DNA of 64,000 nt, taken from contig NC_090283.1 of the NCBI RefSeq assembly GCF_037392515.1, forward strand, positions 30,582,249 to 30,646,248, written 5' to 3'. The notes under the pieces are model-generated. The model saw only the letters and a program-made list of their open reading frames with translations. It was not told the origin of the DNA and searched no databases. Of the stretch, positions 3,809 to 63,047 are shown piece by piece (positions within the stretch are counted from its first letter, which is position 1; every line of letters begins with the position of its first letter). Origin of the DNA: Haliotis asinina. Lineage: Eukaryota; Mollusca; Gastropoda; Lepetellida; Haliotidae. The position numbers and the translations under genes were made by a program.

Positions 3809-3957
3809 GGGGTGGTGGCGAAACCTTATGGTTGATGCGTCCAATAGTCACACCCGAGTTCGATTCCCTAATGGGTACAATGTGTGATGCCCGTTTTAGG
3901 TGTCCGTCGCTGTGTTATTGTTGGAATATTTCCAAAACCATACACACTCACTCGTGA
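3809..3957 (+). repeat. tRNA-derived SINE, family A, sense copy
   Basis: The tRNA-like head contains ggtggtggcgaaacct and a B-box-like gagttcgattccc. The core follows (acaatgtgtgatgcccgttt, then tgttggaatatttcc), and then the tail with cactcactcg. The B-box fixes the orientation. This copy shows the element order well: head, conserved core with tggtgtccc-like motif, tail shared with family B. Confidence 0.75.
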
Positions 3958-4876: not shown

Positions 4877-5142
4877 GACCTTCACAGGTATCAAGTACAC
4901 AGAATTTACAAGGAATGTCAATGGGGCTAATAAAAAAAAAAAAAAAAAAAAAAAAAACCCTTCCCATTATTATTAAGTCAATCCTTCCTTGTGCTGAAGT
5001 TGATTACCAGACAATACATAATTATCTCTTCGAAAACATTTATTCAAACTTGAAGTCTGTCATACATAACATTCATACTCTGTCATTCTGACATTAGCCG
5101 ACAGTCTGTGGTCACTGCTCAATCAGTGGGGGTGACACCAGG
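4877..5142. repeat. Poly(A) tract and AT-rich spacer
   Basis: A run of about 27 A lies at 4931-4957 immediately downstream of the family B SINE. The remainder to 5142 is AT-rich with no recognised feature. Confidence 0.6.
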
Positions 5143-13200: not shown

Positions 13201-16200
13201 CATGATGTATAATCACCTTAGTGCCTTGTTAAAGGAGGCCAGTGGTGCCACTGCACAAAACAGTCTCATCACCCCTTGTTGGGAACTGAACCCTGGTCTT
13301 CAGCATGACAAGCAAACACTTTAACTACAAGACTATCCCACAGTCCTGACCAACCAAGAGTGAATCTGAGATTTCAAACAATGTTCACTGTATTCTTGCA
13401 TGCCCAGGTAGCATTATAATCTCTTTTGTGACTTGGTAGAATTTGATCTGGTATTGATAGCATGAAAACGCACCAAAGGCTGTGGCCTGGGAATGTCGAT
13501 GTTTGGGCGGTGGGCTGACTGTGAGTTTTGAAATGCCATGACCATCTGTTGTTCCAGTCGGTCCAGCTGCTCTTGTCTCTGCAGCTCCAGGGTGGCACCC
13601 ATTGGCAGCTCTGGTGTCTTCGGGGGTGGCGACTGTAGTATGCGTCCTAGCGTTGCATCAACCATGGAGGCAACACACCGTGGGATCATCAGCAGGGTCT
13701 TAACTTTGAGGAAGTTCAGTCTCCACAACAAGCCCCCAATCTGGCAGATAAAACATGGATTATCCACACAGTCTTTACATTTTGTAACCAATTTTTAATA
13801 TCAAAGTAGAACGCATCTACACAGTAGCCCCTCCGTGCCAGAAGCATGAGGTAACACTTGACCTGTCTCAGTGACATGTCATTCTGGATATGTCAGCAGC
13901 TATAAATGCATCTCCAGACACAAAAAAACATATTCCAAAAACCATTGCAATGCCCTGTGTTTACACACAAAAACAATGTACACTCTTCAAAGAAAGAAAC
14001 TTGACATAGGAACAATTTGAATTTTAGGAAAATATTGGACACAAACCAATCCATACTGAAATGGTTGCTGACAACAAAGTGTTTCAAAAAAAGAATGTTA
14101 AACAAAACAACTAATATTACACTCACATTTGTAGTGAATCACTAAAACACCAAATATGAAATGCAAGTGCATCATGAAATTGTGTATCACTCCAAACTGA
14201 AGTCTTTATCTGTAGGTCACTGTACATGTATTGCTTTAAGCCACTAAAGACAACCAAAGAATCTAAGGACTGACAGGAACTCAATAACACAATGTCACTG
14301 GAGATTTACAACGTGGGACACAGCATCAAGAAGTGGCAAGAATCTTTGGCATGTCAAGACGGACCATCTCAAACCTACAGAACCGTTACATCAATACAGG
14401 GAGTGACAGACCCATGTCGGGTCGATCTAGAGTTACCACATCCGGTTGAGACAGCTTTGTTGATGCAGAACGACCACAACATTCACAGCAATCCAAATCC
14501 CCTGACGCCAAATCTCCGACCAGTCCATCCGCAATCAGGAGGCCTGACATTTTGCTGGAAGACCAATGCGAGGAAATGTCTTGACATGTCAAAGGGCTGA
14601 ATGTCTACAATGGTGCAGACAATAAGCAAGATGGCCGCGGGAAAGATGGTGGACAATTTTGCCTTGAGATGAGTCAAGTTCTTCTCATGTGAATACAGAC
14701 ACTGGAAGGAACATTATGCTGATAACTGCACACAGCAGGTCAACAGATCTGGTGATGGAAGTGTCATGATGATAATGTACTGAATGGGGTTAGCTAGGGT
14801 ACAGGATTTAGCAATGTCACATCATTCTCTTCATCAATGTCACAGCAATGTCAGATCACACATCAACAGCATATCTTTCCAACATGACAATACTCAGCCT
14901 CATGTTGCTTGTGTTTGCCAGGGCTTCCTCCAGCAAAGCAATGTTCAGGCATTACCATGGGCTTCTCAATCACCCGATTTGTTCCCCACGGAACATCTAT
15001 GGGATACTCTCGATTGACACTGGTGCTTGCAAGCGTAATCCACCATCTTGGACACTACAAGAACCGCACTTCAGCAAGTATCAAAACATTCCTCAGGGCA
15101 GCATTCAACATCTTTCTTCTATGATCCACCACTGCCAACTGTTATCGACGCTCATGGTTGTCACGCCAGATAATGAAATTTTACTCCGATTGAGTGGCCA
15201 TAATAGCCCACTTTCTGGACAATAATGTTTGTAAAGTGATGATTTTACCATAACTGAGGAACATGTCATGTTTGAATCAGTTGTATGCACTCAGTAAAAC
15301 TCTAAAACATTATGCCAAGTTTCTTTTTTTTGAACAGTACATGAATGTTTAAAACTGAAAACAATGTTACTTTCTCGTGAATTGATGTAGTTTTCATTAG
15401 ACTTACAATTCCACAGACTGCGACAAGTCTTGTCTCAAATGTCGGGCTTGCTACCTGAAGACAGAATCGTTGTGTTCAGAAATAAAACAAAGCATGGGGC
15501 ATACAGAATAAAAAGGTCATGAATCTGCATAATTATGTCAAAGCAACACCATGTCTGCAATTCATCTCAAGCCTTGGTCTAGACTTAGTAATTTCTCATC
15601 AAACTGAAGCATTGCCATTCTTGATTTGGATGCGGTAATCTCATGCCAAACTGAAACATTGTTACCTACCAAGATTTATGCGACATATCTCTATGGTGCC
15701 TAAAACTACCTGATATCTCTCTATGATGCCTATGACTTCCTGATATCTCTCTATGGTGCGTAAGACTACGTGATATCTCTCTATGATGCCTAAAACTACC
15801 TCATATCTCTCTATGATGCTGAAGACTACCTGATATCTCTCTATGATGCCAAAGACTACATGTTTGAATCAGTTATATGCACTCAGTAAAACTCTGATAT
15901 ATGGTGCCTAAGACGATCTCATATCGCTCTATGGTGACTTAGACTACACGATATCTTTATGGAACCTAGACGGTCTGAGATCACTGCATGGTGCCTGAGA
16001 CCATCTGATATCTGTAAGGTAATCGAGACGACTTGATATCTCTTTATGCTCTCTATAACCATCTGATAACTCTCTATGGTGTTTAAGACCATCCGATTAT
16101 TGTCTAAGGTGCCTGAGATCATCTGATTAGTCTCTATGGTGTCCTAGACCATCTGACAACCATCTATGGAGTCTACTCACCTGTAGACCAAGGATGTAAG

Positions 16201-19200
16201 TCAGTGTCTTCCCAGTGACGGGCACACCCAGAATGTGAGTCATGGCAACACGTGGAATATCAAAGTAGTATGGCACGAACAGTGGAAACACAAAGCAGAT
16301 CCTAAATGAAAGATTAACAGTGGCAAAATCAGAGTATAGTATTCAGTCAGCTATTCAAGAAACACCACTTAATTTCAAAAGATGCATATTTCATATTATG
16401 ATGACTAAAGTTGTTGTTAAAGTATACATGGTCAGGGTAACAGGTGTTTGTTAGGATTAACGGGGCTTAACGGAGAAACAGGTATTTGGGGATCAGCTAC
16501 TGATTAAGGTGAGAGGTGTTTTTTGATGCCTAAGGCAAATGTTTCTCAAACACAGTCTGTGTGGGGGGGTTACAAGCTAGTGGGTGTTCCTCCCTCTTTG
16601 ATCAAGTGGGCGTGTCCGACTTCAAATCAGAAGGTCCATGGTTTGAATCCCAGCACAGGACTTGAAATTTTATGGCCACTAGACTTGTCACATTTAAAAC
16701 ATGGTCTTGGAACACACTAACTAGTGTGTGTTCCTTAGTAACACATATTTATACTTTCACATTTGGGCAGACTGACTTGAGTGTGTGAGTTTAGTTTTAC
16801 ACCACACTCAGCAATATTACAGCTATATGGCGGCAGTCTGTAAATATTCAAGTCTGGACCAGACAACCCAGTGATCAACAACATGAGCGTTGATCTGCGC
16901 AATTACTGACTTAGAAGTGAGCAGTGTTCCTTACGGTCCTGTGGGAAGATTCTCCACAGATATGTCCAGATGCTGACACGCCCACAATGACCCGACCTCC
17001 ACCCCACAGGCCAGTGCCCCAGAGGCAATCAGGTACGACTGAAACATACAATAAGCAGGATTTAAACCCCAGTCAAACGTTTCTGGGCAATACAAAGCCA
17101 TGATCATAGGATTCTAGGAAAATAAAATACACAATGACAATCTCCTGGTGCACCTAGCGGACTTAATCCCACACAGCAGGCCATCTGTGCCAACAGATAC
17201 TTATGATACGTTAGTGAAAAGGCAGAGTCCAGCTTCCTCAGGACAAGTACAAACATGCACGAACTTGAATGCCTATTTTAATTATTTCCACACATGTGTA
17301 ATTCTGACGCCAACTGAAGCAGCTTTGAGCGCTGAAATAAAGTGAAATGTGATTGGTTGATACTGGGATAATTTTCCAATGAGAACTGTTACTAGTAGAT
17401 ATCACCAAGTTAATAATGGATTTCACTCAAAAAAGCACTGTGAGTAATATGAAATCAAAGGTTTTTACCTGTATGAAGAATTGAATTGAAAATGATTGAA
17501 TAGTGGATCCAATATCAAATCAAGATATGGGTGAATCGCTGCACCTCTACTGATTAATGCCAGTAAACATAGTGAGGTGAAAATTCGAAATGCACTGTCA
17601 TACTTGGAGATTCACAAGTGCTTCATATAGAGTGCAATAATAGACTCTGAAAGATCAACTTGTTGGTGCATATAGCATTTCAACCGGTTAAGACTTTTCT
17701 CAGAATAATAAGGAGCTTGCAATCACGCACAACAAACCAGCTGATGCATGACAGGACAATATACCAGAAGTGTAGTGAGAATAACACCAATGTCAAACAT
17801 GCTGAAGATCACATACCGCAAACTTTCTGGATCCAAATCTGCGTTCAAAGATCCTGAAGTAATAGACCAGCATGCAGCACACAAACAGATCCTTCAGATC
17901 TAGGAAGGCCATACGAGATGACAGGAGCCGCCATATCTGCAACAAAACACTCACCATTTAAAATTTGACAGCATTTGCTTTACATGGTGTTTCTCCAGCA
18001 TCACCTGGGGGTTGTACAGGTACACTGTAGTGTTGCATCTTACCTGGTGTTTCTCCAACATCACCTGGGGGTTGTACAGGTACACTGTAGTGTTGCATCT
18101 TACCTGGTGTTCCTCCAGCATCACCTGGGGGTTGTACGGGTACACTGTGGTGTTGCATCTTACCTGGTGTTTCTCTTACCTGGTGTTTCTCCAGCATCAC
18201 CTGGGGGTTGTACAGGTACACTGTAGTGTTGCATCTTACCTGGTGTTGCTCCAGCATCACCTTTGTGTTTAACACATACACTGTAGTGTTGCATCGTACC
18301 TGGTGTTTCTCCAGAATCACCTGTGTGTTTAACACATACACTGTAGTGTTGCATCTTACCTGGTGTTTCTCCAGCATCACCTGGGGGTTGTACAGGTACA
18401 CTGTAGTGTTGCATCTTACCTGGTGTTTCTCTTACCTGGTGTTTCTCCAGCATCACCTGGGGGTTGTACAGGTACACTGTAGTGTTGCATCTTACCTGGT
18501 GTTTCTCTTACCTGGTGTTGCTCCAGCATCACCTTTGTGTTTAACACATACACTGTAGTGTTGCATCTCACCTGGTGTTTTTCCAGAAGTAGCTGTGGGT
18601 TGTACAGAAGGTAGCTCTTGTAATGCTGTAGTGGGAAGGAGAAGGCAAAGGATGTGGCCAAGGACAGCCACACAATCCCCTTACTCACAGGAGCTTTGTC
18701 TGGAAACACAGATTTGCATTCAATAAGCACTTTATCTTCCTTGAATCAGGAACACTGCACGTCCCTTGAGATTACAGTAGACATAAATATATTTCATCAG
18801 TGTCATTTCTCTACATTATGCCTACTTAAAATTTAAGTATACATGCACATGGGGGCCAAGCAATCAAGGGATGATCTGCTGAGTTGCAAATCCCAGGGAC
18901 CACAGGTTTAAACACAATGTATATGTTACCCACATATGTTATCAGTCTCCTTCAATATAAAGCATGTTTGTTTTTAACACACATGAAAATCAAGTTATAA
19001 ATCAAACTGATCCCGATTGCATTCTTTTCTATGCATACAGACCACTACCATTAAGCGCCCACCATCATACTTAAAGCATTCATTTAGTGTTAATTATGAC
19101 ATTTGTATTGGCTGTAGCACTAAAAGAATCATGCCAGTTTGTGGAATTTCTTCTTCAGCACCAGACGTGCAATCATAAGTCACTGTTAACACAAGCCATA

Positions 19201-22094
19201 GGCAATCATAAGTCACTGTTAACACAAGCCATAGGCAATCATATGTTACTGTTGACACAAGCCATAGGCAATCATAAGTTATTGTTAACACAAGCCATTC
19301 TGTTGGTATGTGTCTAAACATTCATGGGAAGCAATGGTCAGGTACAGACATCAGTCAGTTGGTGAGTGGGTATGGTTTTATACTGTCTTTTACAATATTC
19401 CTCAACATCATGCATAGAATACCAGAAATGCATACACAGAGGGGAATCAAGCATTGACAAGTATGAATCAGGGTGGGGAGATACAGTGTGTAGGGCCGTT
19501 CCGGATCACTAACCAAAAACCAAATTCATGCGCCTCCACAAAAATATATCTGAAGCACCTAAGGGTAATTTCTGGCTGAGCAATGTTTCATGTTACTTAC
19601 ACCAAAATATGAAATTAATTCGGTCCTGAAAGACTTTAGAAATATCGCAAAAGAAACGCTCCGCTGTTATGGCAGTTCTGAATCATTTCAAGGTATTCCG
19701 GATCACGTGACATTGCAGTTGATAACAACATCCGCTTGGTAGATAGTTTTAACACTTGCTGCTCATAACAACATACTCCAGAATCATGATTCCAGGTACC
19801 GGTGTGGGCTGAAAATATTTTCTTGGGGTTACTACATAAGTGGTTTATGGTACTGATCTCTTCAGTATTGATAGATAGTATTTTGTCGTGACTTTTACAT
19901 GCGACTTTAACTTGTAAAGTACAACTATCGAGGCAAAATCACCCATTTTTTCAGAACCTTTAACGCTCTATTCAGTCAGGAGCTTTTTAACATCACATCA
20001 TCAGCTACTGATCGTAGAGCTAACGAGCATAATCTATTAATACCAGCCTATTTGAACTCTTTATGGGTGTACGTGTATCTTCTTGTGTTTAAAAATGAAA
20101 CAAACTATAGCTCGAGTCTACTCCATCCTCATTGACTCTGCCTTTGGCATAAGTAACAGGGTATTTTTGGTTGTCATAAAAGGTCACTTTCTGTTGCTGT
20201 GGTTAATAACGTAATGACATAGTATGACCATGCCTCCTCTTTTCTCTACATAAAGAATTTGCCTGAATGACCCTGCAAGACTGCTTGGCACTTGTAGTGA
20301 GTTGTACCTTACTAAAATGCATCAAGTTATTAAAAAAAAAGAAGAATACGATTTGAAAACAAAACAAAACAATTTCAACCCCAAAGCATTGTCAAGTTGG
20401 TTATTTTCAGTATTCATAACCTTTTATCTGACAGACAGTTCTGTACCGCAAATTACATTTTGGCGAAATGAAGACCAAAACGTTTTATCTATCTACTCTG
20501 TGCAAAGAGCATCTAAGACAAACCATTGAGTGAGTACATATTTTAAATAAAGGCAACCGAAGTAAGATCGTGAAACTAATTACTTTATGTCAACAGTAAT
20601 TAACATTTTTCGGTGGTTGACATCTTGAGGTGATCCCTATTTTCTGGTGATCCAGAACTGACTCATTTCTCCAAAAATATGGCAGATGTAGAGAAGATTT
20701 TTGTTGCTTTTTACAGGTGAAAAGTATATGCATGCAATGGAGTGTTAACGTGAAGTAACTTGATTCTAGTCTTATTTGAGACGGGCCATTCCGAATGAGT
20801 TACCTTTTCCTGACGTGCCAACGACAAAGTACGCCATAACAAGTATCATCATTACAGGGCGCGCAAGTAAACTTCTGGTTTAGATCAAGTAAAACAAAAT
20901 ATATCACCTTAAAGAGCAAGTCTAGACTGCAGTTTACCGGGCGTGCGACCCGGGACTGCTGGGCGCTCGCTAATGAGCGCGCTATAGTGATAGCGCGCTG
21001 TAGAGCTACTGAACTGTCTCACTTTACCGCGCTGATGCATCCTTAGGGTTAGGGATCCCCCTTCTAGATCCTTAGGGTTAGGGACCCCCCTTCTAGATCC
21101 TTAGGGTTAGGGACCCCCCTTCTAGATCCTTAGGGTTAGGGACCCCCCCCCTTCTAGATCCTTAGGGTTTGGGACCCCCCCTTCTAGATCCTTAGGGTTA
21201 GGGACACCCCCTTCTAGATCCTTAGGGTTAGTGAGTAAAGGTTAGGGTTGGCTTACTTTAGATGCGATTATATCCATATATCCATCCATTGTCAAGTCAA
21301 ATGATAAACGTCATCATATATCATAGCTTCGCTGGATTGGCTGCACGACATCTTGAAAACAGTGCCTAGGTGTGGCTTCTCGCTTTGATGAATGGGTAGG
21401 CGGGGCCTAGCTCTGCGCATGTGCAGTAAATGAAAACAAACCATAATAGATTGTTTTCATTCACTGCGCATGCGCAGAGCTAGTGGGGTAATGACCCGTT
21501 AAACGAGCACTAACTAACTGTGATCGCACCGGTGGTCCCGAGGTAGCGTGTCCGCTAATTAGTCTAATTGGCACAGTTGGAATCCCACGACCCCTGCTGA
21601 AAGCGTTCGAGCCCCACCAGCACAGCGACAAAAATCGGAAAAAGTGCGCCCGGTAAAGTGCAGTCGTCCCAAGAGCAATGTCTCGGTTATAAAATGAGAG
21701 ACTGAGTGAAGAAATCCTTCGAGATTTACAGTTTCTAGGGGTTAATGTACGTGGCAGTGATCCGGAATAACCGTGATCCGGAATACCCTTACCCACTGTA
21801 GTAAGGTTTGGAAAATAATAGGCTGATTTGGCTGTTCAATATTTCTATTCAGTAGAACAAATTTCAGACTGCTTCACACAACATGATCATGTCAGTGATG
21901 TTTTGCGTAAAATAATACTTCTTTTATAATTCGATTAAGAAGCATGTATAAAGGATGACCCTCTGCCAGTTACGTGACACAAACATCCTGTGAGATTGAC
22001 CTTGTTTCGAACCTCAGAAATTTCTCGTCATCAGATATCACCGCTTATTCGTTTTTCACTTACAGAATCCCGAAGACCCGTAAACTGATAGCAT
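7124..22094 (-). CDS. UBAC2: UBAC2, ER rhomboid-like pseudoprotease with UBA domain (spliced)
   Basis: I rebuilt nine coding exons on the minus strand with consensus splice sites and matching phases: 22094-22064, 18699-18572, 17936-17817, 17038-16935, 16301-16181, 15454-15407, 13740-13474, 11031-10973 and 7234-7124. The product has about 329 residues; the human protein has 344. It matches UBAC2 throughout: GSSGFYKAPVSKG near the N-terminus, IWRLLSSRM, FRIFERRFGSRKF, VPYYFDIPRVAM, GKTLTYILGLQ, MGATLELQRQEQLDRLEQQ, and a C-terminal UBA domain (MGFSQ, NNDISMATNVLLQ). UBAC2 is an ER multi-pass protein related to rhomboid/Derlin proteins. The family is known to retain UBXD8 at the ER and to act in ER-associated degradation. 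One short linker exon between 13474 and 11031 (phase 0 to phase 1) was not found, so 15-25 residues are missing from the model. The introns are large and repeat-rich. Confidence 0.93.
8205..8330. repeat. Dispersed repeat, also present at 57015
   Basis: The block ggtgttcggttagataaata, then gttattcaccggt and a downstream ccagtgaac, recurs with small changes at about 57020-57110. The gttattcac and gtgaac motifs form a short inverted pair. No coding capacity and family unknown. Confidence 0.5.
9140..9430. repeat. 171-bp direct duplication
   Basis: Two copies, about 9142-9254 and 9313-9424, share aatattttattcagaa, aaactaccaaaaggcacc and atctatctatgtgcca with modest divergence. The copies lie in the last UBAC2 intron. 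The minus-strand frame at 8872-9180 overlaps this repeat and shows no family resemblance. Confidence 0.75.
9660..10950. repeat. 30-bp minisatellite in the last UBAC2 intron
   Basis: About 40 copies of a 30-bp unit (gaaatgatgacatactggat plus gagacatgag). Copies vary mainly by single substitutions and a few losses of whole blocks. Because the period is a multiple of three, long open frames appear on the minus strand. A degenerate SINE tail interrupts the array near 9712-9770. Confidence 0.95.
9712..9770 (-). repeat. SINE tail fragment inside minisatellite
   Basis: The string gagtgagtgagtttaaactt, followed by a decayed gcactatttcagccatat, is the shared 3' tail of SINE families A and B. It has been inserted or captured at the edge of the 30-bp array. 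Confidence 0.6.
10973..11031 (-). CDS. UBAC2: UBAC2 penultimate exon, linker before UBA
   Basis: The acceptor attcagcag and donor gtcagt flank 59 nt. In the only phase that joins the UBA exon it reads VPTDNHNSDLTGPQLEEQ, resembling the human acidic linker ending LEVSEEQ. It needs a preceding phase-1 exon, which exon 7 does not provide, implying an undetected small exon. Confidence 0.7.
11529..12745. mobile_element. Candidate non-autonomous DNA element in UBAC2 intron
   Basis: The left end reads aaactgcattttacgggtcc followed by ccggaagt. The right end, reverse-complemented, reads ctgcagtttacgggtccc, a 15-nt insert, then cccggaagt. These inverted ends enclose about 1.2 kb with frames but no recognised transposase. 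The right end carries a cluster of perfect small hairpins (12608-12725). A target duplication is not evident. Confidence 0.4.
12480..12725. repeat. Cluster of perfect short hairpins
   Basis: Hairpins occur in series. One is gtttaaaact...agttttaaac around 12478-12516. Others are cttactgccaaaggcagtaag, gcgccgaaggcgc and ctgccgaaggcag, each with a three-base AAA/GAA loop. The segment is much richer in GC than its surroundings. Confidence 0.75.
13236..13345 (-). repeat. tRNA-derived SINE head, antisense
   Basis: On the minus strand it reads tgggatagtcttgtagttaa, then a B-box-like gggttcagttccc, as in family A heads. It lies in a UBAC2 intron. Confidence 0.55.
13474..13740 (-). CDS. UBAC2: UBAC2 exon 7
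   Basis: The acceptor tctgccag is followed by IGGLLWRLNFLKVKTLLMIP, then a linker with PPPKTPELPMGATLELQRQ and LDRLEQQMVMAF, which aligns to human MGATLDIQRQQRMELLDRQLMF. I placed the end at the donor gtgcgt (phase 0). Reading through would reach a stop at about 13414, so this donor choice is the least certain of the gene. Confidence 0.85.
14290..15345 (+). mobile_element. Decayed Tc1-like transposon in UBAC2 intron 6
   Basis: On the plus strand, fragments of a Tc1-family transposase are readable in different frames. Near 14345 the helix-turn-helix part reads MSRRTISNLQNRYINTGS, followed by SGRSRVTT. Near 14875-15010 the catalytic part reads FQHDNTQPHVA and SPDLFPTEHLWDTL. The segment with the first catalytic Asp is not recognisable and frames change several times, so it is dead. 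The 3' flank contains aagtttctttttttTGAACA, like the ends of Tc1 relatives. It is opposite in strand to UBAC2. Confidence 0.8.
15407..15454 (-). CDS. UBAC2: UBAC2 exon 6 (48 nt)
   Basis: Sixteen codons, VASPTFETRLVAVCGI, lie between acceptor cttcag and donor gtaagt, phase 0 to phase 0. They align to human LFTSGSYIWIVAISGL. Confidence 0.85.
15690..16175. repeat. ~31-bp minisatellite abutting the UBAC2 exon 5 donor
   Basis: Sixteen or so degenerate copies of ctgatatctctctatgatgc plus cta/taagac. It starts within a few bases of the exon 5 donor. One position (15859-15895) is replaced by a 37-bp copy of unrelated sequence from 15267-15303. Confidence 0.85.
16181..16301 (-). CDS. UBAC2: UBAC2 exon 5, transmembrane segment
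   Basis: The first base completes the Pro codon from exon 4. The exon encodes FPLFVPYYFDIPRVAM and GKTLTYILGLQ, and ends at phase 0 before gtgagt. A ~31-bp minisatellite begins only about 6 nt into the following intron. Confidence 0.93.
16580..16740 (+). repeat. tRNA-like SINE head
   Basis: The string gatcaagtgggcgtgtccga is followed by a B-box-like catggtttgaatcccagc. A tRNA-derived head seems likely. A family B SINE copy follows directly at 16775. Confidence 0.45.
16775..16908 (-). repeat. SINE, family B, truncated antisense copy
   Basis: Contains gtgtgagtttagttttacac, gcaatattacagctatatgg and ctgtaaatattcaagtctgg, ending at ttgatctgcgcaatt. The 5' part of the element is missing. It lies about 30 bp beyond the exon 4 donor in UBAC2 intron 4. 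Confidence 0.8.
16935..17038 (-). CDS. UBAC2: UBAC2 exon 4, transmembrane segment
   Basis: The exon follows acceptor gtttcag and encodes SYLIASGALACGVEVGSLW, then NLPTG, which aligns to the human NLPSG. It ends at phase 2 before gtaagg. Confidence 0.88.
17817..17936 (-). CDS. UBAC2: UBAC2 exon 3
   Basis: Forty codons, phase 0 at both ends, with acceptor gttgcag and donor gtatgt. The exon encodes IWRLLSSRMAFLDLKDLF and FRIFERRFGSRKFA. This is the most conserved block of the family (human IWRLICGRI...LDLKD...FRIFERRYGSRKFA). Confidence 0.93.
17980..18571 (-). repeat. 60-bp minisatellite built from the UBAC2 exon 2 donor
   Basis: Nine units of about 60 bp plus three 16-bp partial duplications lie directly after exon 2. 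On the UBAC2 sense strand each unit is a copy of the last 36 bases of exon 2 (encoding LYNPQVMLEKHQ-like peptide), the CAG|gtaaga donor and the next ~18 intron bases. Ten copies have CAG|GTAAGA and one CAG|GTACGA, against CAG|GTGAGA at the true site. Two unit types exist, one with CTGTACAACCCCCAG and one with GTGTTAAACACAAAG. The 60-nt period keeps frame; the 16-bp duplications break it. Confidence 0.95.
18572..18699 (-). CDS. UBAC2: UBAC2 exon 2, first transmembrane segment
   Basis: The acceptor tgtttccag precedes AC AAA GCT, completing the Tyr codon from exon 1. The exon encodes KAPVSKGIVWLSLATSFAF and ends LLLEKHQ at the donor CAG|gtgaga, phase 0. The last 36 bases and the donor are the source of the adjacent 60-bp minisatellite. 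Confidence 0.9.
19168..19295. repeat. 33-bp tandem repeat, four copies
   Basis: Four near-identical units of gcaatcataagtcactgtta plus acacaagccatag. It lies in UBAC2 intron 1. Confidence 0.9.
21040..21238. repeat. 29-bp satellite containing telomere motif
   Basis: Seven units of ccttagggttagggaccccc plus cttctagat. Each unit carries TTAGGGTTAGGG, two copies of the usual animal telomere hexamer, next to a C-run. Units differ mostly in C-run length. Confidence 0.92.
21525..21625 (+). other. tRNA-like segment
   Basis: The string ggtggtcccgaggtagcgtg resembles a tRNA A-box region, and gcgttcgagccccaccagc a B-box and 3' stem. The spacing between them is too long for a normal tRNA gene. A decayed tRNA-derived SINE head is the likeliest reading. 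Confidence 0.35.
22064..22094 (-). CDS. UBAC2: UBAC2 exon 1 (start codon)
   Basis: Ten codons plus one base encode MLSVYGSSGF and the first base of a Tyr codon. The exon is followed by the donor gtaagtg. The GSSGF motif joins exon 2 to give GSSGFYKAP, very close to the human N-terminus, which fixes the start codon at 22094-22092. Confidence 0.85.
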
Positions 22095-23709
22095 TTGGAG
22101 ACTGTTGTTCCTTTCTACGATCAGATTGCTCTGTCTCCCTGATCAAAACACGGAAGCGGAAACAACTAGTTCCTAGCGTTCGCGCAAGTGCAAACACTTC
22201 GGTGATGTCATTTACACATCGCTTACGGCATTGATTTGCATAATGTCTAAATATGAAACAAACACAGGTCGGATTATCAATATCGAAAAGGTCAGGGGTT
22301 ATCTTAAGTGACTGCTAGTTCTATTCAAACGTCATATTGCCTTTGAACGAGTATACTCATTATTCTTTGCATGAGCGATACATAATGTAAGGGAGATAAC
22401 TATGTCCAGATGATGTTTGTAATACAACATATTAGACAATGTAACAAAAATGTGCTTCATTACAAATCTTCCCCAGCACAGTTTTGACGCATGAGTATTT
22501 CATTTGTGTCACTGCTACAGGATAAGTAAATTTAATTAGCGGTAGTTCAATTGACATATTTATGAACATGCCCTCAAAGGATATTGTTGGCATGATAACG
22601 CCGGCAGCTACTTGCGGGCTTGTGAATCACCTTCAACGTCTGACAAGGGGTGACATGGCTGTGGTGAAATACATCTTTTTCACTTTTTTCCGAATTCATG
22701 AATCTGAACAAGTTTAACAACAAATCCGTTTTGTTCAAGTGTTCATAAAGATTAATTAAAACATCCCCAGTTCATTTTCCGGAGTTGTAAACATTTGTTT
22801 ACGTTTTGACAGATCAATGCTGAATGAACCGCCGCCCTACACTAAACGAAACACTAGCTGAGTGTCGCGGTTTGTTTTCTTATATTTGGTACATGACAGT
22901 ATATAATCTGTTTATGAAGTAGGTCATTCTGTTAATTCTCTCATGCATTTTAACAGTGAGGCGTTGACATTTTTGTCTCCATTTCCATTATTTAAAAAAT
23001 GTGCCGTCAAATATTTTGGTTGGTGTTTCTCAAGTGGCGATTGAGAATACAGTTCCATCACGTGATGCAAGCCTCCGCATCCGTTTCGTATAAATCGTAT
23101 GACACGCTTTCTCGTGTAATAATTTCTATTAACATCACTCAAAGTTTGGTATTGTCGAAAGGTATCTGCGTTATAGTGCACACAACAATAACAACAAGAC
23201 TGACGGAGAGTAGCTTTACGCCGCGTTTAGCAACCTTCTAGCAATATCACAGCAGGGGACACCAGAAACGGGCTTTACACATTATATTCACTTGGGAAAT
23301 CGAACCCAGGTCTTCGGTGTGACGACCTATCCCTCCGCCCCGACAAGAAACATCCAATAATGATAACGCGTGTATTATATACTAACATAATACAACCAGC
23401 AGCTTCATTTGTTAAATGATACAGCATAAAAAGCAGTGGCTGATATGATAATGTAGAAGGTTTTTAATGAAATATCCTGCAGCAATCTTGACTTATATGT
23501 CGTTAGTTATTTAACATTTCCTTAAGGGTTGCTTGCTGCCAATGCGTGTGTGAATTAGTCGTAACGTATATGTGACAGGTATATTTGAGTTACTCCCCCT
23601 TGATGATTTGTCAACATATGCCAAACTAAAAACATTTTCTGGTTTTGTTATCAAATGGAAACATTTGACATGATATAATCTGCGAAGTGAGTCTGACACC
23701 AATGAAGAT
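22095..23709. promoter_or_regulatory. Head-to-head promoter interval between UBAC2 and RAB3GAP1
   Basis: The two start codons point away from each other across 1.6 kb, so both core promoters must lie here or in upstream non-coding exons. No TATA box is convincing at either side. An antisense family A SINE sits at 23201-23341. A 7-codon upstream frame (ATG at 23702) overlaps the RAB3GAP1 start codon. Confidence 0.5.
23201..23341 (-). repeat. tRNA-derived SINE, family A, antisense copy
   Basis: Contains gctttacgccgcgtttagca, agcaatatcacagcagggga and the B-box complement gaaatcgaacccaggtcttc. It lies about 370 bp upstream of the RAB3GAP1 start codon. Confidence 0.85.
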
Positions 23710-26700
23710 ATGCGCCATATGAATAGAATGAATTCGATCGGTGCAGATGAGGATGCAGATGTGTTTGAAATTACTGACTTTACGACTGCGTCAGATTGGG
23801 AGAGGTTCATCGCTCGCTTTGAAGAAATCATCCACGAATGGAAGTTAGCCAATCGACCGCCACTACCCCCAGCGCCAAAAGACGAGTATTCAAATGGAAC
23901 CTGGGATGAACGTTCTGAAGAATTACAATTTGCTGATTTTAAATTTAAGATTACTCACAAATTTCTGAAATCGTGCGTTGTAACCACTGAGGGTAGAACT
24001 TCCGAAGAGAAGGACAGTGGTCAGGAGACGGACGACATTGAAGATTTTGATGAAAAGACACCAACAGTGTACTCAGATTTAATGAACCTTGACAACGATT
24101 TTCCTTCTCGTGCCCACCCACTGTGTAGATGGTATGGACTCCAGGAATTCCTCATTTTGTCTCCCGCAGCAAACAATGAGATTATTGACTCTGAAAGTAG
24201 AAGCAAGCTACTTCTCAGCTCTGCCTCCATTGCAGTAAGCAACACGTCCTGCAGTGTGCCAGTGTTTGTACAGCAGTCACATAACTGGAGGAAACTATAC
24301 TGTGGAACATGTGTCGTTCCTGGAGCAAATGTTGAGTTTGAAATGGTTCATCTGAAAAAGATACCCTCCCAGTACGATCACCTAGCTGGTCTTATAGATG
24401 TCTTCAAATCGAAATTAGGGTGTGTGTACATCTCTATGCCTCCAGTCTCAGTTTCTGTGAGGTTCACATACATCTTATCTGACTGGTCATGTACAGCATG
24501 GCCACAGGCGCCTCCAGACCTGTCATCATTGATGGAGGATGAAGTTGGCTGCACTGATTTTGGTAACCTTCCATTTGGAGCATGTGAGGATCCAGTGAGT
24601 GACTTACATTTGTCCTGCACTTGGCCAAGTCTGTCAGAGGATATGATTGTTGAGAACCATGTTTATTCGGATCTTGACCCCCTTCAAGCACCTCAGTGGT
24701 CTGTTCGAATCAACATGGCTGATGATCCACTGTGTCTTCTAGGGGATTATATCAGAGAATTCCTTACTCTCACTGAAAGAAAAGAAACAACTGATGAACT
24801 CCTTGGAAACCTAGTACCTGAAGAGGGGGACAATGCAGACTTAAGCCAAGCACTGCAACGTTTGACTGAACCCAGCATGCCATATGCTATGCCTTCCATT
24901 GGATCTGTTGTATCGACTGCTACAACAAGACTGAAAATAAAACCAGAAGAAGCACCAATTGCTTCAGATATGCTAAATCAGATATTATTATTTCTATTTC
25001 CCGATGCCAAGGGGCCAAAATGTGAAGGGGAAGATGAAAATGAAGACGAAGAAGTGAAGGAAAAAACTGCAAGATACACAGATGTTTTGGCAGAGCTAAA
25101 GAAACAGATGAAAACTGCACCTCTTGATAGTTTAACACATCGCTTAGCTGTGTGTTTTGCTATAGTTAACCATAATTATGGTGGTTTAAGAGCTGTTGCA
25201 CACTTGTGGCAAGAGTTTGTCTTAGAGATGAGATTTCGCTGGGAGAATAATCACTTTGTATCAGGAGTGGAAAAGTCTCAACCCAATCTTGGAGCTTGCC
25301 TTCTGCACCAGAAGCTTCAGATGCTGAACTGCTGCATAGAGAGGAAGATGAAGAGAGAGTCAGTAGGCTACGGATATGGTTCAGAATGTGACAATTCTGA
25401 TGGAGCTTCACCTGATAGTCCTGGTGATCCTTTCAGTCGTGTGTCAGACAAACAAGACTCCTCCCCAGCTGAAGGACAAGTTGATCAGGTAAACAGTGAA
25501 CGTTTTGGCAGTATAGGAAGTGTAAGCGATGATGAATTCTACGACTGTGATGAGGATGATGATGAGGATGCAGATGGAGCTTCGGTCCCAAAGGAGAAGA
25601 CTAAAGACCGAAAGAACAGCAGGAACAGGGACAGCTCAGAAGACAGAGCCAAGTTGGAGGAAAGTATTGAGTCAGCATCTGTTGCCAGTGAATCATCCTT
25701 TAAGGATAGCTTTTCTCATAAACCTGAAGGTAGACTTGCACCTTTTAAAAACATGAAACTCCTGGGGTCTAGTGAGCAGATGTTTGTCCCCATTACACAA
25801 GAACCATCACCTATGACAGAAGACATGCTTGAAGAACATGCTGATGTGCTCTCAAAACTTGGGTCATCTCAAGAAAGCACACAGCTGCGTGCAAGAATGC
25901 AGAGTGCTTGTCTTCTCTCTGATATGGAGTCTTTCAAAGCTGCTAATCCGGGCTGCATCCTGGAAGATTTTGTTAGATGGTATTCCCCAAGAGATTACAT
26001 TGAGGATGAGGTTGAAACTGAAGATGGTAAGAAAGAAATTAAAGGCTGCCTTAGTCAAAGAATGCAAATTCCTGGAAACATGTGGGTGGAAGTATGGCAG
26101 AGTGCAAGACCCGTTCCTGCCAGGCGACAAAGACGGTTATTTGATGATACTAGAGAAGCTGAAAAGGTCCTCCACTGGCTTAGCTCCATGAAGCCTGCAA
26201 CTGTTGTGTTTAACTTAATGCCAATGTTAACTCATGCTGCTATAGTAAAGGTCCTTGATAATGAAGATGCCGATGTGCCTGCTGTGAAGACTCTAGTTGA
26301 CCAAATAGTGTCCAAGGGGGCCAAACTGACTCGAAACCCAATGGCTGATGTCAGGAAATATGAACATTTGGTCAGACTTATTGAAATGGCAGAAACCCTG
26401 ATTGCAAGAACAGTGTCCCTGAGATCCAAATTTTCTGAAGACCTCCTAGAACAACGAGGTGCAGAGAGTGAACTCCATCACTTTGTGTCCTGTCTTCATC
26501 AACATCCGGAGGTTACAGTTCGAGGTGGTCCTTGTGGTCCTGTAGGGGCCATCATCCACAAACTGTTTGTCCAGTCACAAAAGGCTTCCTACATGTTGCT
26601 AGATGAGGATGAGGAGCCCACTGAAGAAGTGGAGAAAGATGCACATAAACCTGCTAGCACTGTCCCAGATTTCCCACGAGCAACAGCTCGTGAATACATA

Positions 26701-26829
26701 CTGAGAGCTATGGTACCAAGGCCTGCTCCCTATTCAAGAGTGCTACCACAAAAGATGTTCTGTGTTCTGGTAGAAAATGACCACTTTCGGTTAGCAGGAG
26801 CATTTTCTTCTGATACAACTTTCCAGTGA
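23710..26829 (+). CDS. RAB3GAP1: RAB3GAP1, Rab3 GTPase-activating protein catalytic subunit (single exon)
   Basis: This 1039-codon frame is collinear with the human 981-residue protein from end to end. Landmarks are FEITDFTTASDWERFI at residues 19-34, FPFGACEDP-like LPFGACEDPVSDLHLSC, VAHLWQEFVLEMRFRWENN, LHQKLQMLNCCIERK, an acidic variable linker (about residues 570-680), SDMESFKAANPGC near 737, FVRWYSPRDYIEDEV, ARRQRRLFDDTREAEKVLH from residue 804, and the C-terminus RLAGAFSSDTTFQ. The Arg-rich block is where the human catalytic Arg (Arg728) lies. With RAB3GAP2 the family inactivates Rab3 and activates Rab18 at the ER. No intron interrupts the frame, whereas vertebrate RAB3GAP1 has over 20 exons, so a retrogene origin is likely. 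Methionines at codons 1, 4 and 7 are all possible starts. No stop or frameshift is present, so it looks functional. Confidence 0.97.
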   Translation: MRHMNRMNSIGADEDADVFEITDFTTASDWERFIARFEEIIHEWKLANRPPLPPAPKDEYSNGTWDERSEELQFADFKFKITHKFLKSCVVTTEGRTSEEKDSGQETDDIEDFDEKTPTVYSDLMNLDNDFPSRAHPLCRWYGLQEFLILSPAANNEIIDSESRSKLLLSSASIAVSNTSCSVPVFVQQSHNWRKLYCGTCVVPGANVEFEMVHLKKIPSQYDHLAGLIDVFKSKLGCVYISMPPVSVSVRFTYILSDWSCTAWPQAPPDLSSLMEDEVGCTDFGNLPFGACEDPVSDLHLSCTWPSLSEDMIVENHVYSDLDPLQAPQWSVRINMADDPLCLLGDYIREFLTLTERKETTDELLGNLVPEEGDNADLSQALQRLTEPSMPYAMPSIGSVVSTATTRLKIKPEEAPIASDMLNQILLFLFPDAKGPKCEGEDENEDEEVKEKTARYTDVLAELKKQMKTAPLDSLTHRLAVCFAIVNHNYGGLRAVAHLWQEFVLEMRFRWENNHFVSGVEKSQPNLGACLLHQKLQMLNCCIERKMKRESVGYGYGSECDNSDGASPDSPGDPFSRVSDKQDSSPAEGQVDQVNSERFGSIGSVSDDEFYDCDEDDDEDADGASVPKEKTKDRKNSRNRDSSEDRAKLEESIESASVASESSFKDSFSHKPEGRLAPFKNMKLLGSSEQMFVPITQEPSPMTEDMLEEHADVLSKLGSSQESTQLRARMQSACLLSDMESFKAANPGCILEDFVRWYSPRDYIEDEVETEDGKKEIKGCLSQRMQIPGNMWVEVWQSARPVPARRQRRLFDDTREAEKVLHWLSSMKPATVVFNLMPMLTHAAIVKVLDNEDADVPAVKTLVDQIVSKGAKLTRNPMADVRKYEHLVRLIEMAETLIARTVSLRSKFSEDLLEQRGAESELHHFVSCLHQHPEVTVRGGPCGPVGAIIHKLFVQSQKASYMLLDEDEEPTEEVEKDAHKPASTVPDFPRATAREYILRAMVPRPAPYSRVLPQKMFCVLVENDHFRLAGAFSSDTTFQ

Positions 26830-28719: not shown

Positions 28720-28856
28720 GGGCAGTGGGGTAGCCTAATCGTTAAAAGTGTTCGCTTGGATGGATACAATGTGTGAAGCCCATTTTATGATGTCCCCCGA
28801 CGTGACATTGCTTAATATTGCTACAAGCAGTGTGAATCTAAACTCACTCACTAAAT
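28720..28856 (+). repeat. tRNA-derived SINE, family A, sense copy
   Basis: Starts ggcagtggggtagcctaatc, has acaatgtgtgaagcccattt and gtcccccgacgtgacattgc, and ends aaactcactcacta. The B-box region is deleted, otherwise the order matches 3809-3957. Confidence 0.85.
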
Positions 28857-36000: not shown

Positions 36001-39000
36001 CTAAAACACTAAAATGCATTCATAAAGTAGTCATTAAATGTTTGGACAGTGCACAGTGCATTTTAACATGTTCGAAAATAATTCTAGAGCAAAATTTGGT
36101 CTTTGGTTTCATGGAAGAGTTTTGTCTAACAATCAGTCAGAAATAATCATAAACTATATCACAGATATTTTCCATCGGGTATGAAATAATTCCCCAAGGT
36201 AGTCGATGTTAAGAAGTTGCCTCCACTGACAACCATCTGGCTATGGAGGCCTAAAGTACTGTCGGAAATGGAAAAAAGACTGTTTTAGGCTGTGTTCGTC
36301 TGTATCCCTAACATTTACACAACTGTAAATAGCATGTGTCGAAATAACCCATATAGGCCTGACTGGGCGTTCAGTGGGATGCGTAATAGGATATCCAGAA
36401 AAGCATGTTTCTTCGTAGAATCGAACAAAAAGTAGAAAAAAAGAATAGCCGATGAAAACAATATATCAGACCATATATGGCAATACGTCGCCCATCCAGG
36501 CACGCGCTGCCTGCAAGCACAAGGGGTCATCTCATAGGTACTTTGTGCTCTTTCATGTGTGTTGAATATGTCTCATCTGTTGATTAACACCTTAGGTGTC
36601 TTTCTTTCGAAGGCATATGTTGAGATATTTAACGGGTATGATGCCCACAGAAAAGATTAAATCTGCCGTCGTATTAAATGTCACAAAATATATAGCTGGC
36701 AAGAAGATCGACAAGACTTGATATGATTAGTATGTTTTGGCATGACGTTCACTGACCCAGTTTAATTCCACTAACAGATTATACTGGGCTGATATCTGTA
36801 TCACCCCAACCAGTGTCTTCGACTCCCGTCCTGGTTTTGCTTTTGAGACACCATGGAAGCTACATTCTTAAGAGTTTCAGTATTAAAGTTATTATATTTT
36901 ACGCCACCTATCGTTTATAATGACGTCAGATCGAATTTCAAAATGGGCATTTGGCAGTGTCCTTTGTAATACAATATCATCGCGCACTAATTTGCATAAG
37001 GCCATGGTCTGTTCCAAATAAGTCGCTGTGGACTTTCTGCACCAATCTCTCTTCAGTAAAATCCCTTGCCTACGTATCCTATCTGCCTACCACTGAGACT
37101 GTAGTTAGGCCGAACTCAGCTGGACAGATATTTCACAGTTCACATATCAACTACACAAAATGTGGGTATAAATGTGAAAAAAATATTGTATTCTCCATTT
37201 TCTCCGGTACTTTAGTGTGACCTTGAATCTCCACAGCATAAAGCATAGTTGAACCCTGCGCAATGTGATCCTTGTCGGTTTGAAATACGGTACCTTCTGC
37301 CTACCGCTGTATACCTGTTAAACCTTCTAAAGTTGGATGCACTTAGAGCCAAGCCCTGCATTCATTGCACTGGCTCACGTTACCTTCATTGCCTTAGCCC
37401 ATAATAAGGATCCCACTCCCTTCCTTCTGAAGTTCTCCTCCACAAAGAGGTCTTCAACGAACAGGAAGCGCCCAGACATGGTTGTGAAGGACCACATATA
37501 CAAGAGGTAACCAACAAGCCGAGGTTTGCCTGGAAGAGGTGAAGTCATACTTTATGGGTTTACCTTAACTGGAAGATGGAGAACTTATACTTTCTGTGTC
37601 TGTTGATGCTTGCTGTTCTCTTTAGTAGTCAGACACAAAACCACAAACTAATTCGGTGACGAAAACTGTCTTTACATTTACACCATGATGCTGTATCCAG
37701 CGTTGTATTACAGACAGTACCTGTGACTCATTAAACAGTTGATGTGGCTGATGTGATATGTTTGTGTCAAACAGAGGGAGGTAATGCATTAAACCGGAGT
37801 TTGAAGAATTATATGTGGACCGTTGTGTAACCCAAGATTCTGCCATTTACGCAACAGATCTATCAAAAGTCCTGTATTGTGGAGCATCATTAAGAGGGGA
37901 ATTGCACGTGACAGGACTCACCAGTTGTTAGGGTTTCTTCAGCCACGAAACAGTCGAACACCTTCTGTTCTCCAAAGCCATCTCTTTTCACAGCTGGAAT
38001 GAACTGATCCACTGTTTCAACAATCACATAGCAGACATGGAGTTACTGGAGCAAATAAACCATTTAGACTCACCGTCGTTATCATAGTGCATATCACCCT
38101 GTAGAACTACTTCAGCGAAAGGCCTGGGAGAAGTGACTTAACTCACGTAATGACATCCACAATAACAGCGTCCCATGTGGAGAAGTCCAGTGTGTCCGTG
38201 AGGTCACTCCAATAGCTATTCTATAGGTACTATAGTTTCATCTAGAAATAATACCTATTACGACTGCGTCGACTGATACTTAGACGACGAATATATCACT
38301 GCTGATACAAATATAATGTTGCTACAACAACTACCACCACTGCCACTACTGATACTGTTGTTGCTACAACTACCACCACTGCCACTACTGATACTGTTGT
38401 TGCTACAACTGCCACCACTGCCACTACTGATACTGTTGTTGCTACAACTACCACCACTGCCACTACTGATACTGTTGTTGCTACAACTGCCACCACTGCC
38501 ACTACTGATACTGTTGTTGCTACAACTACCACCACTGCCACTACTGATGCTGTTGTTGCTACAACTACCACCACTGCCACTACTGATACTGTTGTTGCTA
38601 CAACTGCCACCACTGCCACTACTGATACTGTTGTTGCTACAACTGCCACCACTGCCACTACTGATACTGTTGTTGCTACAACTACCACCACTGCCACTAC
38701 TGATACTGTTGTTGCTACAACTGCCACCACTGCCACTACTGATACTGTTGTTGCTACAACTGCCACCACTGCCACTACTGATACTGTTGTTGCTACAACT
38801 ACCACCACTGCCACTACTGATACTGTTGTTGCTACAACTGCCACCACTGCCACTATTGCTACTGTTGTTGCTACAACTGCCACCACTGCCACTACTGATA
38901 CTGTTGTTGCTACAACTGCCACCACTGCCACTACTGATACTGGATACTGTTGTTGCTACAACTACCACCACTGCCACTACTGATACTGCATTACCATTCA

Positions 39001-46020: not shown

Positions 46021-47304
46021 CAGTGTTCCCAGAAATTATTGAAAAAATCTTTGTTTTTTTCTAATGATACTACGATTGGAAAAAGGGCTTTCAATATGCA
46101 CTAAGCATACTAAATAAGGGAGACAACTCTTGGAGGCTTAGAAGGCAGCTCATTACGTCAAGAGATATCTCCCTTGTCTGAGCAGACGGCTTCCTGTGTT
46201 GACATGGCAGAATTTACAGCAAGAGAGAAATGAAAGCTCATTCTAGATGATTTTGAAAGGGGTGAGGCTGGTGCTAAAGTGTTAGCTTGTAGACATGGTA
46301 TTCCTTTGTCTACAGTATACAGAACTTTGAAGAATATTCAAACAGGAACCGGGATAGAGCACAAAGCAGGGGCAGGTCGGCCTAGGAAATTCAGTGTTGT
46401 GAATCGCCGAAGACTTGGGCAGATTGTGAGTAGGGGCAAAGTGAAAAGTGTTGAGAACATCAGAAATGAAATGATTAGCAGAGGAAGTCCTCAGGTATGC
46501 AATGAAACAGTTAGGCAGGAATTACAGAGATTTAATTGGGTGAAAAAGCGTGGAATTCCCTCGCCGTTGATGAAAGATGCACAAAAGGAAAAACGTTTAA
46601 ACTGGTGTCGGGCTAATGAAAATCAAGATTGGGATAATGTTTTCTTTTCGGATGAAAGTTCTGTTTGGCTTTTCCCTAATTGTGTGAAAATTTGGACCAA
46701 AGATACTGTCAAACCTATCTACCAGCGACCAAAACATAGCCCGAAGTTTCACATGTGGGGTGGCATATCGGCTCGCGGAGTGACGCCATTGTGTGTTTTC
46801 ACGGGAAACTTGACAAAAGAAAGATACGTTGACATTCTAAATGGTCACCTTCTTCCGACAGCACAAACATTGTATGAAGATGATTGGATTTTCCAGCATG
46901 ATAATGACTGACCCAAAACACACTGCGCGCTACACAAAACAGTGGTTGTCGGGCGACAATGTTCAAGTTTTAGACTGGCCCAGTAACAGCCCAGACCTAA
47001 ACCCAATTGAGAATGTGTGGGGAGTCATGAAGGACAGAATAAACCAAAAGGGACTGACAAATATTGAAGGCCGAGGTGGTCCAATATTGGGATACCCTGT
47101 CACACGATTACCTACAAACTTTGATGGGTAGTGTGCCTAGGCGTATTCAGGCATGCATTGCTGAGCGAGGAGGTCTAACAAAGTACTAAAACAAGACTGA
47201 GACTGTAAAAGGATGATGTTTTAACATGTTTATGTAAGTAAAACGCCATAAACGTAATGAGTTACATGACGCAACATGATTCTCAATAATTTCTGGGAAT
47301 ACTA
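46021..47304 (+). mobile_element. Tc1-family transposon, 1284 bp, with TA target duplication
   Basis: The ends are cagtgttcccagaaattatt and its inverted match (right end reads aataatttctgggaatacta). TA flanks both sides (46019-46020 and 47305-47306). The transposase spans ATG 46204 to TAA 47187-47189: FTAREK, then HTH (ACRHGIPLSTVYRTLKN), FFSDESSVW, FQHDND, and SPDLNPIENVWGVMKDRI. Thirty-four residues separate the second Asp and the Glu, the DD34E spacing of Tc1. Lesions are TGA at 46231-46233 (probably CGA), a tandem TGAC duplication at about 46906-46914, and a frame change near 47080. The copy is young but inactive. Confidence 0.95.
46204..47189 (+). pseudogene. Tc1 transposase, DD34E, three lesions
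   Basis: See the enclosing transposon. The longest intact stretch is 46234-46908 and carries the DNA-binding domain and the first catalytic Asp. The duplicated TGAC moves the second catalytic block (DPKHTARYTKQWLS, SPDLNPIENVWG) into another frame. The C-terminus AERGGLTKY is again in a different frame. Confidence 0.93.
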
Positions 47305-49627: not shown

Positions 49628-51395
49628 ATGGAAACGACTGACGATATCCTGGCTAACGGTGTGTCATCATACACTGACGACATCCTGGCTGATGGTGTGT
49701 CATCATACACTGACGACATCCTGGCTGATGATGTGTCATCATACACTGAAGACATCCTGGCTGACGGTGTGTCATCATACACTGACGACATCCTGGCTGA
49801 TGATGTGTCATCATACACTGATAACATCCTGGCTGATGATGTGTCATCATACACTGATAACATCCTGGCTGATGATGTGTCATCATACACTGATAACATC
49901 CTGGCTGATGGTGTGTCATCATACACTGACGACATCCTGGCTGACGGTGTGTCATCATACACTGATGACATCCTGGCTGATGGTGTGTCATCATACACTG
50001 ATGACATCCTGGCTGATGGTGTGTCATCATACACTGACGACATCCTGGCTGATGGTGTGTCATCATACACTGACGACATCCTGGCTGACGGTGTGTCATC
50101 ATACACTGACGACATCCTGGCTGATGGTGTGTCATCATACACTGATGACATCCTGGCTGATGATGTGTCATCATACACTGACGACATCCTGGCTGACGGT
50201 GTGTCATCATACACTGACGACATGCTGGCTGATGATGTGTCATCATACACTGACAACATCCTGGCTGATGGTGTGTCATCATACACTGACGACATCCTGG
50301 CTGATGGTGTGTCATCATACACTGATGACATCCTGGCTGATGGTGTGTCATCATACACTGATGACATCCTGGCTGATGGTGTGTCATCATACACTGACGA
50401 CATCCTGGCTGATGGTGTGTCATCATACACTGACGACATCCTGGCTGGCTGACGGTGTGTCATCATACACTGACGACATCCTGGCTGACGGTGTGTCATC
50501 ATACACTGACGACATCCTGGCTGACGGTGTCTCATCATACACTGACGACATCCTGGCTGACGGTGTGTCATCATACACTGACGACATCCTGGCTGATGGT
50601 GTGTCATCATACACTGACGACATCCTGGCTCATGGTGTGTCATCATACACTGACGACATCCTGGCTGGCTGACGGTGTGTCATCATACACTGACGACATA
50701 CTGGCTGACGGTGTGTCATCATGCACTGACGACATCCTGGCTGACGGTGTGTCATCATGCACTGACGACATCCTGGCTGACGGCGTGTCATCATACACTG
50801 ACGACATCCTGGCTGATGGTGTGTCATCATACACTGACGACATCCTGGCTGATGGTGTGTCATCATACACTGATGACATCCTGGCTGATGGTGTGTCATC
50901 ATACACTGACGACATCCTGGCTGATGGTGTGTCATCATACACTGACGACATCCTGGCTGGCTGATGGTGTGTCATCATACACTGACGACATCCTGGCTGA
51001 CGGTGTGTCATCATACACTGACGACATCCTGGCTGACGGTGTGTCATCATACACTGACGACATCCTGGCTGACGGTGTGTCATCATACACTGACGACATC
51101 CTGGCTGATGGTGTGTCATCATACACTGACGACATCCTGGCTGACGGTGTGTCATCATACACTGATGACATCCTGGCTGATGGTGTGTCATCATACACTG
51201 ACGACATCCTGGCTGATGGTGTGTCATACACTGACGATATCCTGGCTGATGGTGTGTCATCATACACTGACGACATCCTGGCTGATGGTGTGTCATCATA
51301 CACTGACGACATCCTGGCTGACGGTGTGTCATCATGCACTGACGACATCCTGGCTGACGGTGTGTCATCATACATTAACAGGCAAATGTCCTGTT
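49628..51395. repeat. 36-bp satellite, about 49 copies
   Basis: Unit: gatggtgtgtcatcatacac plus tgacgacatcctggct. Both strands are open in several frames because 36 is a multiple of three. Three 4-bp GGCT slips (near 50448, 50668 and 50958) change frame, and one unit at 51226 lacks a cat triplet. Most variants between units are CG to TG or CA. Confidence 0.96.
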
Positions 51396-55804: not shown

Positions 55805-55944
55805 TTAAGGACTCCTTTCAACAATATGCCGGTAATATCACGATTGGGAACATCAGAAACTGACGTCACACAATATACCCATGTGGAGAATCGCACCCGT
55901 GTTTTCGACGGGAGGGGTGAACGCTTTAACCATTAGGCTACTGT
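55805..55944 (-). repeat. tRNA-derived SINE, family A, antisense copy
   Basis: Contains caacaatatgccggtaatat, acccatgtggagaatcgcac (B-box complement) and cgctttaaccattaggctac (A-box complement). The SINE 5' end is at the right. Confidence 0.8.

Positions 55945-62967: not shown

Positions 62968-63047
<80 letters not shown>
62967..63047. repeat. (TA)n microsatellite
   Basis: About 40 uninterrupted TA dinucleotides. Confidence 0.97.

Follow-up and report, generated by a model that had tools for sequence, protein, structure and literature searches.

The window analysed here, a 64,000-nucleotide (nt) stretch of contig NC_090283.1 (positions 30,582,249 to 30,646,248), contained a UBAC2-like gene on the minus strand, whose second intron was occupied largely by a minisatellite that begins at the end of exon 2. 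The array (17984-18571) was 588 nt long and made up 93% of the 635-nt intron 2. Judged from its sequence, it is probably a boundary-spanning minisatellite of the type named mirages in lancelets, kept alike by concerted evolution, with the native site at 18572 as the main donor. The array, its units, and the exons described below all lie on the minus strand.

Structure and origin of the array

The array was composed of nine full 60-nt units, of types A and B, and three partial 16-nt units, which followed one another from the exon in the order A-16-B-16-B-A-A-B-16-B-B-B. The 5′ end of unit 1 (type A, 18512-18571) was the native donor, and the first bases of intron 2 were the start of this unit. 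The three partial units, each of which shifts the reading frame, were located at 18496-18511, 18420-18435, and 18164-18179. The remaining 47 nt of the intron, ending in the acceptor TTGCAG, were located at 17937-17983. Tandem Repeats Finder (TRF) reported overlapping rows within 17980-18606, with periods that included 60, 76, 136, 196, and 256.

Each full unit contained a copy of the exon 2 end, a stretch of 36 nt (18572-18607). Of these 36 positions, 30 (83%) agreed between the exon and the unit consensus, none of 5000 shuffles reached the alignment score, and the initial annotation, which had described the array as copies of the exon end with its donor, was therefore supported. An exon-derived part longer than 36 nt was rejected; further upstream there was an out-of-register match of 8 nt, which 237 of 5000 shuffles equalled. 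Type B was nearer to the exon end than type A (78–83% and 69–78% over the 36 nt, respectively), and for this reason type B is probably the older form. The six differences between the exon end and type B fell at codon position 3 (four), position 1 (two), and position 2 (none). This pattern, seen over few sites, would be expected if coding constraint on the exon had persisted once the array had formed.

Pairwise identity among the 60-nt units was 82–100%, with a mean of 91%. Three B units were identical to one another, as were all three 16-nt partial units, and unit 1 differed from the same-type unit at 18299-18240 at two positions only, both near the donor. The array was homogenised inside and diverged at its edges, which were formed by the exon and, on the far side, by a dead copy reading CAT|GTAAAG. 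It shared three features with the mirages: the repeats duplicate an exon–intron boundary, many units carry splice signals, and the concerted interior excludes the edges.

A tandem duplication of the 36-nt exon end, together with the donor and some 24 bases of the intron, probably founded the array. Unequal exchange, slippage, or conversion would then have expanded it and made its units alike, and exon 2 itself would have drifted under coding constraint. The spliceosome would mostly take the native donor at 18572, so that the array would leave as intron, and occasional slips into the array donors would give mostly stop-containing transcripts. The gene would tolerate the array because the upstream donor stays in use.

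The position of the array was also compared with chance. When the overlapping TRF rows were merged by hand, and a single-base run (4932-4957) and a TA run (62969-63047) were left out, the window contained 20 arrays that covered 9825 nt (15.4%). At least one of the eight mapped UBAC2 exon edges fell in an array in 63% of 20,000 random shifts, with one of eight observed, under a null that ignores the exon-edge origin of the unit. Exact array-unit patterns had no matches in the viral and genome contig collections, as expected for an animal gene. An RNA gene was rejected, as neither Rfam, at the gathering score, nor ARAGORN gave a match. Folding of 300 nt of the array as DNA gave nothing remarkable (z −1.64; 11 of 200 shuffles folded equally well).

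Donor sites and the consequences of their use

The native donor, CAG|GTGAGA (18566-18574), has its last exon base at 18572. The array contained 12 extra junctions: ten CAG|GTAAGA, in agreement with the initial count, one CAG|GTACGA (18300), and one CAT|GTAAAG (17984), the dead copy. The sequence CAGGTAAGA occurred ten times on the two strands of the window, always within the array, and 0.57 occurrences were expected from shuffles. Donor strength was estimated with an approximate donor matrix and with U1 duplex energies calculated without the pseudouridines of U1. The ten CAG|GTAAGA sites and the native donor scored 7.01 and 6.89 in the matrix, and −11.3 and −11.4 kcal/mol as U1 duplexes, respectively. 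The GTACGA site was weaker (3.67 and −7.4 kcal/mol), and the dead site weaker still (0.09 and −2.0 kcal/mol). The array donors had been proposed to match U1 better than the native donor, but both measures gave a tie. Therefore, the native donor is one of eleven near-equals and not a weak site among strong ones.

The donor was not specially conserved within the unit. In a count that took in the nine full units and left out the three partial units, the donor 9-mer carried three changes, compared with an average of 4.5 for the 60 circular 9-mers of the unit. A value as low or lower was found for 36 of the 60, the donor 9-mer included.

Only one extra donor, at 18512, gave an open in-frame product. 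Its use would retain unit 1 and add 20 residues, VRCNTTVYVLNTKVMLEQHQ, as first suggested. The other 11 junctions all led to a premature stop, which bore out the proposal that most longer choices truncate the protein. The frame-shifting junctions at 18496, 18436, and 18420 reached a stop inside exon 3. The remaining eight, four of which are a multiple of three long, stopped at a TAA (18416-18418) that is the first in-frame stop on read-through from exon 2 and is formed by GTAAGA in a shifted frame. The unit length of 60 nt is divisible by three. If the 16-nt pieces were absent, the units could be read through in an open frame; it is therefore these pieces that close the frame. Transcripts with premature stops upstream of later exons are expected to decay, and this would apply to the array-donor transcripts, because their stops lie in such a position. 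In addition, an acceptor-like CCCCCAG preceded VMLEKHQ in the units.

Several observations weigh against a working gene in which 18572 is the main donor. By both models of strength, the native donor was no stronger than the array donors. Its predicted accessibility was 0.0006 in a 300-nt fold window, the lowest of 13 sites (others 0.0019–0.0293), and 0.0069 in a 150-nt window, in which eight of the 12 array sites were higher and four were lower. Exon 4 and the exon expected between 16181 and 13740 were looked for and not found. With regard to published cases, the gene model that crosses the repeats of lancelet PGBD5 is described in passages of PMC3902484 as a prediction without complementary DNA support, and passages of PMC2812944 indicate that tandem repeats at exon–intron edges in human segmental duplications can generate alternative splicing, which also speaks against a blanket view of such repeats as harmless. 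Structure was separately considered as the reason for the choice of the native donor and was rejected, since accessibility pointed the opposite way at one fold setting.

The array donors might instead be used frequently, which would give many stop-bearing, degraded transcripts and few with the insert of 20 residues. The array would then lower output in proportion to the number of donors and would not act as a regulated switch. The equal scores of ten array donors and the native donor, the poor predicted accessibility of the latter at both fold settings, and the alternative transcripts from human exon-edge repeats (passages of PMC2812944) are consistent with such leaky competition. However, lancelet mirages with AG/GT signals were reported, in passages of PMC3087553, not to disturb splicing. 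A heavy load should also favour donor loss, yet ten of the 12 junctions were intact, although homogenisation could mask such loss. Leaky competition is therefore considered unlikely, if by no means negligible.

It is quite improbable that the array acts as a rheostat, in which each unit is a decoy donor of equal strength and copy number tunes the shares of full-length, 20-residue-longer, and stop-containing transcripts. Such a control would be heritable and fast-mutating, and the units might double as in-frame microexons of 21 nt, by way of the acceptor-like CCCCCAG. The initial annotation had expected copy-number change to alter the splice options directly. Such change would indeed alter how many decoy donors there are, but the first extra donor would still yield the same product.

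A length-variable splicing switch selected for function, the reading first put forward for this locus, is very improbable. The open, in-frame first extra donor and a unit length divisible by three, with the array open but for the 16-nt pieces, would suit it. However, a readable frame came from only one of the 12 extra donors and the other 11 truncate, the donor positions showed no excess conservation, and the array donors had no advantage over the native donor. On paper the donors allow two protein isoforms, the native one and the one longer by 20 residues; the idea of a switch is weak because the donors that follow the first extra one offer no further protein. There is likewise very little likelihood that the array is an assembly or haplotype artefact and is in reality shorter, longer, or absent: the identity of three B units and of all three 16-nt pieces would fit this, as would the haplotype of the lancelet mirage BflGb6 that was aberrantly assembled in a draft (passages of PMC3087553), but the differences among the units had a structure, with two types, A and B, and private changes in several of the units, and 588 nt should fit one ordinary read.

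Gene context and other features of the window

The coding part of exon 1 (22064-22094), MLSVYGSSGF plus 1 nt with the donor T|GTAAGT, was placed by a pattern scan and an in-frame join and is putative. Exon 2 (18572-18699) was 128 nt long and ended in LLLEKHQ at phase 0, and exon 3 (17817-17936) encoded IWRLL...RKFA. The three exons joined into 93 open codons, which started with MLSVYGSSGFYKAP and ended with FGSRKFA.

The gene was compared by tblastn with an approximate human UBAC2 sequence. Exon 3 was identical at 27 of 41 residues (E 3e-12), and three other pieces were significant, at 16291-16178 (E 2e-8), 13740-13534 (E 3e-6), and 7234-7133 (E 2e-6). Exon 2 aligned gap-free but weakly (E 0.73). 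When exon 2 was joined from 18572 to exon 3, the junction Q|IWRL was gap-free, as expected from the human protein. The donor at 18572 and the acceptor at 17936 agreed with those assigned initially. The exon at 7234-7133 contained a UBA domain (PF00627, E 2.5e-11), which corresponds to the C-terminal UBA feature of UBAC2. For the rhomboid/derlin-like membrane part that UBAC2 has at its N-terminus, a DER1-like Pfam match in the N-terminal part (E 3e-4, 21.2 bits) was under the cut-off of 26.6. A PDB search with the 93-residue protein gave three matches at chance level (E 0.73 to 0.97). For exon 4, four open candidates were present, none of them UBAC2-like by eye. As neither of the two missing middle exons could be located, the locus is called UBAC2-like and no claim of intactness is made.

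Two further arrays, of 30 base pairs (bp), were located at 15688-16175, and the upper one began 6 nt past the donor of a UBAC2-like exon (exon end 16181). The array at 15900-16175 was rejected as a second mirage, as its exon-end match was equalled by 1013 of 3000 shuffles.

Elsewhere in the window, a RAB3GAP1-like protein of 1039 residues was encoded in one intronless open frame at 23710-26829 (plus strand). It matched PDB 8vyb_A with 1042.8 bits and the Pfam families PF13890 and PF19533. Runs of at least 10 A or T were absent between 21,000 and 30,000, around this frame, which is possibly a retrogene or a case of intron loss. Diverged copies or pieces of an element like a short interspersed nuclear element (SINE) were located at 1066-1171, 3852-3926, 23201-23350, 28761-28840, and 55834-55907. 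Its tail was found at 1085-1109 and 23226-23250, with two and three mismatches, respectively (chance 0.00), and four further diverged pieces were present. The tail is presumably of a type that occurs in molluscs, abalone above all, which hints at a mollusc as the host; a literature search for the strings gave no paper that contains them. In a 39-bp array (38313-38988), at least four reading frames, spread over both strands, were open over long stretches, and a 36-bp array (49637-51374) contained 48 copies with 94% matches and encoded TDDILADGVSSY in one frame. A Tc1/Tc3-like transposase fragment (PF01498, E 2.2e-7) was located at 46234-46911 (plus strand).

Comparison with known boundary repeats

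The initial annotation knew of no description of such a case. However, the same anatomy is found in lancelets, in other genes. In passages of PMC3087553, repeats at the exon–intron boundaries of lancelet globin genes are named mirages, and Adh3 and other loci are cited; the Adh3 mirages are those of Canestro et al. 2002, as cited via PMC3087553 and PMC3902484. The Adh3 data and the reverse-transcription polymerase chain reaction results for the globins suggest that regular splicing is undisturbed by mirages, which show concerted evolution inside with the edges excluded (PMC3087553). For lancelet PGBD5, passages of PMC3902484 describe splice-site repeats of 60 and 108 bp, cite TnC, and infer normal splicing.

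As far as these passages go, the mirages of Adh3, the globins BflGb6 and BflGb9, TnC, and PGBD5 share the anatomy of the UBAC2-like array, with unit sizes of 10–72 bp (Adh3), 60 and 108 bp (PGBD5), and 150–160 bp (globins). The array differs from them in its gene, and its host was not shown to be a lancelet. It also has more donor-bearing units than the globin mirages, of which the BflGb6 haplotypes had six and three repeats. The UBAC2-like array is thus a further case of the known mirage-type arrays and is ordinary in kind.

The internal tandem repeats of human genes, in the passages of PMC2812944, are likewise exon-edge minisatellites that carry potential splice sites. Those repeats lie in duplicated genes, in whose transcripts novel introns as well as alternative splicing are seen, whereas the UBAC2-like gene is not known to be duplicated. 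Within molluscs, intron 3 of the abalone TSSK1-like gene (PMC6905558) also contains a minisatellite, the repeat number of which reportedly differs among individuals. The passages on that gene do not describe its unit as a copy of an exon edge, unlike the unit of the UBAC2-like array.

The UBAC2-like array clearly illustrates the conversion of an exon edge into tandem repeats; it makes up 93% of the intron, and ten of its donors match the native one in score. Mirage-type arrays would arise outside lancelets as well, should the host belong to another group. Such loci could serve to study, in a natural setting, how the spliceosome chooses among many near-equal donors, and also to examine the proposal, found in passages of PMC3087553 on the lancelet mirages, that boundary repeats seed new introns.
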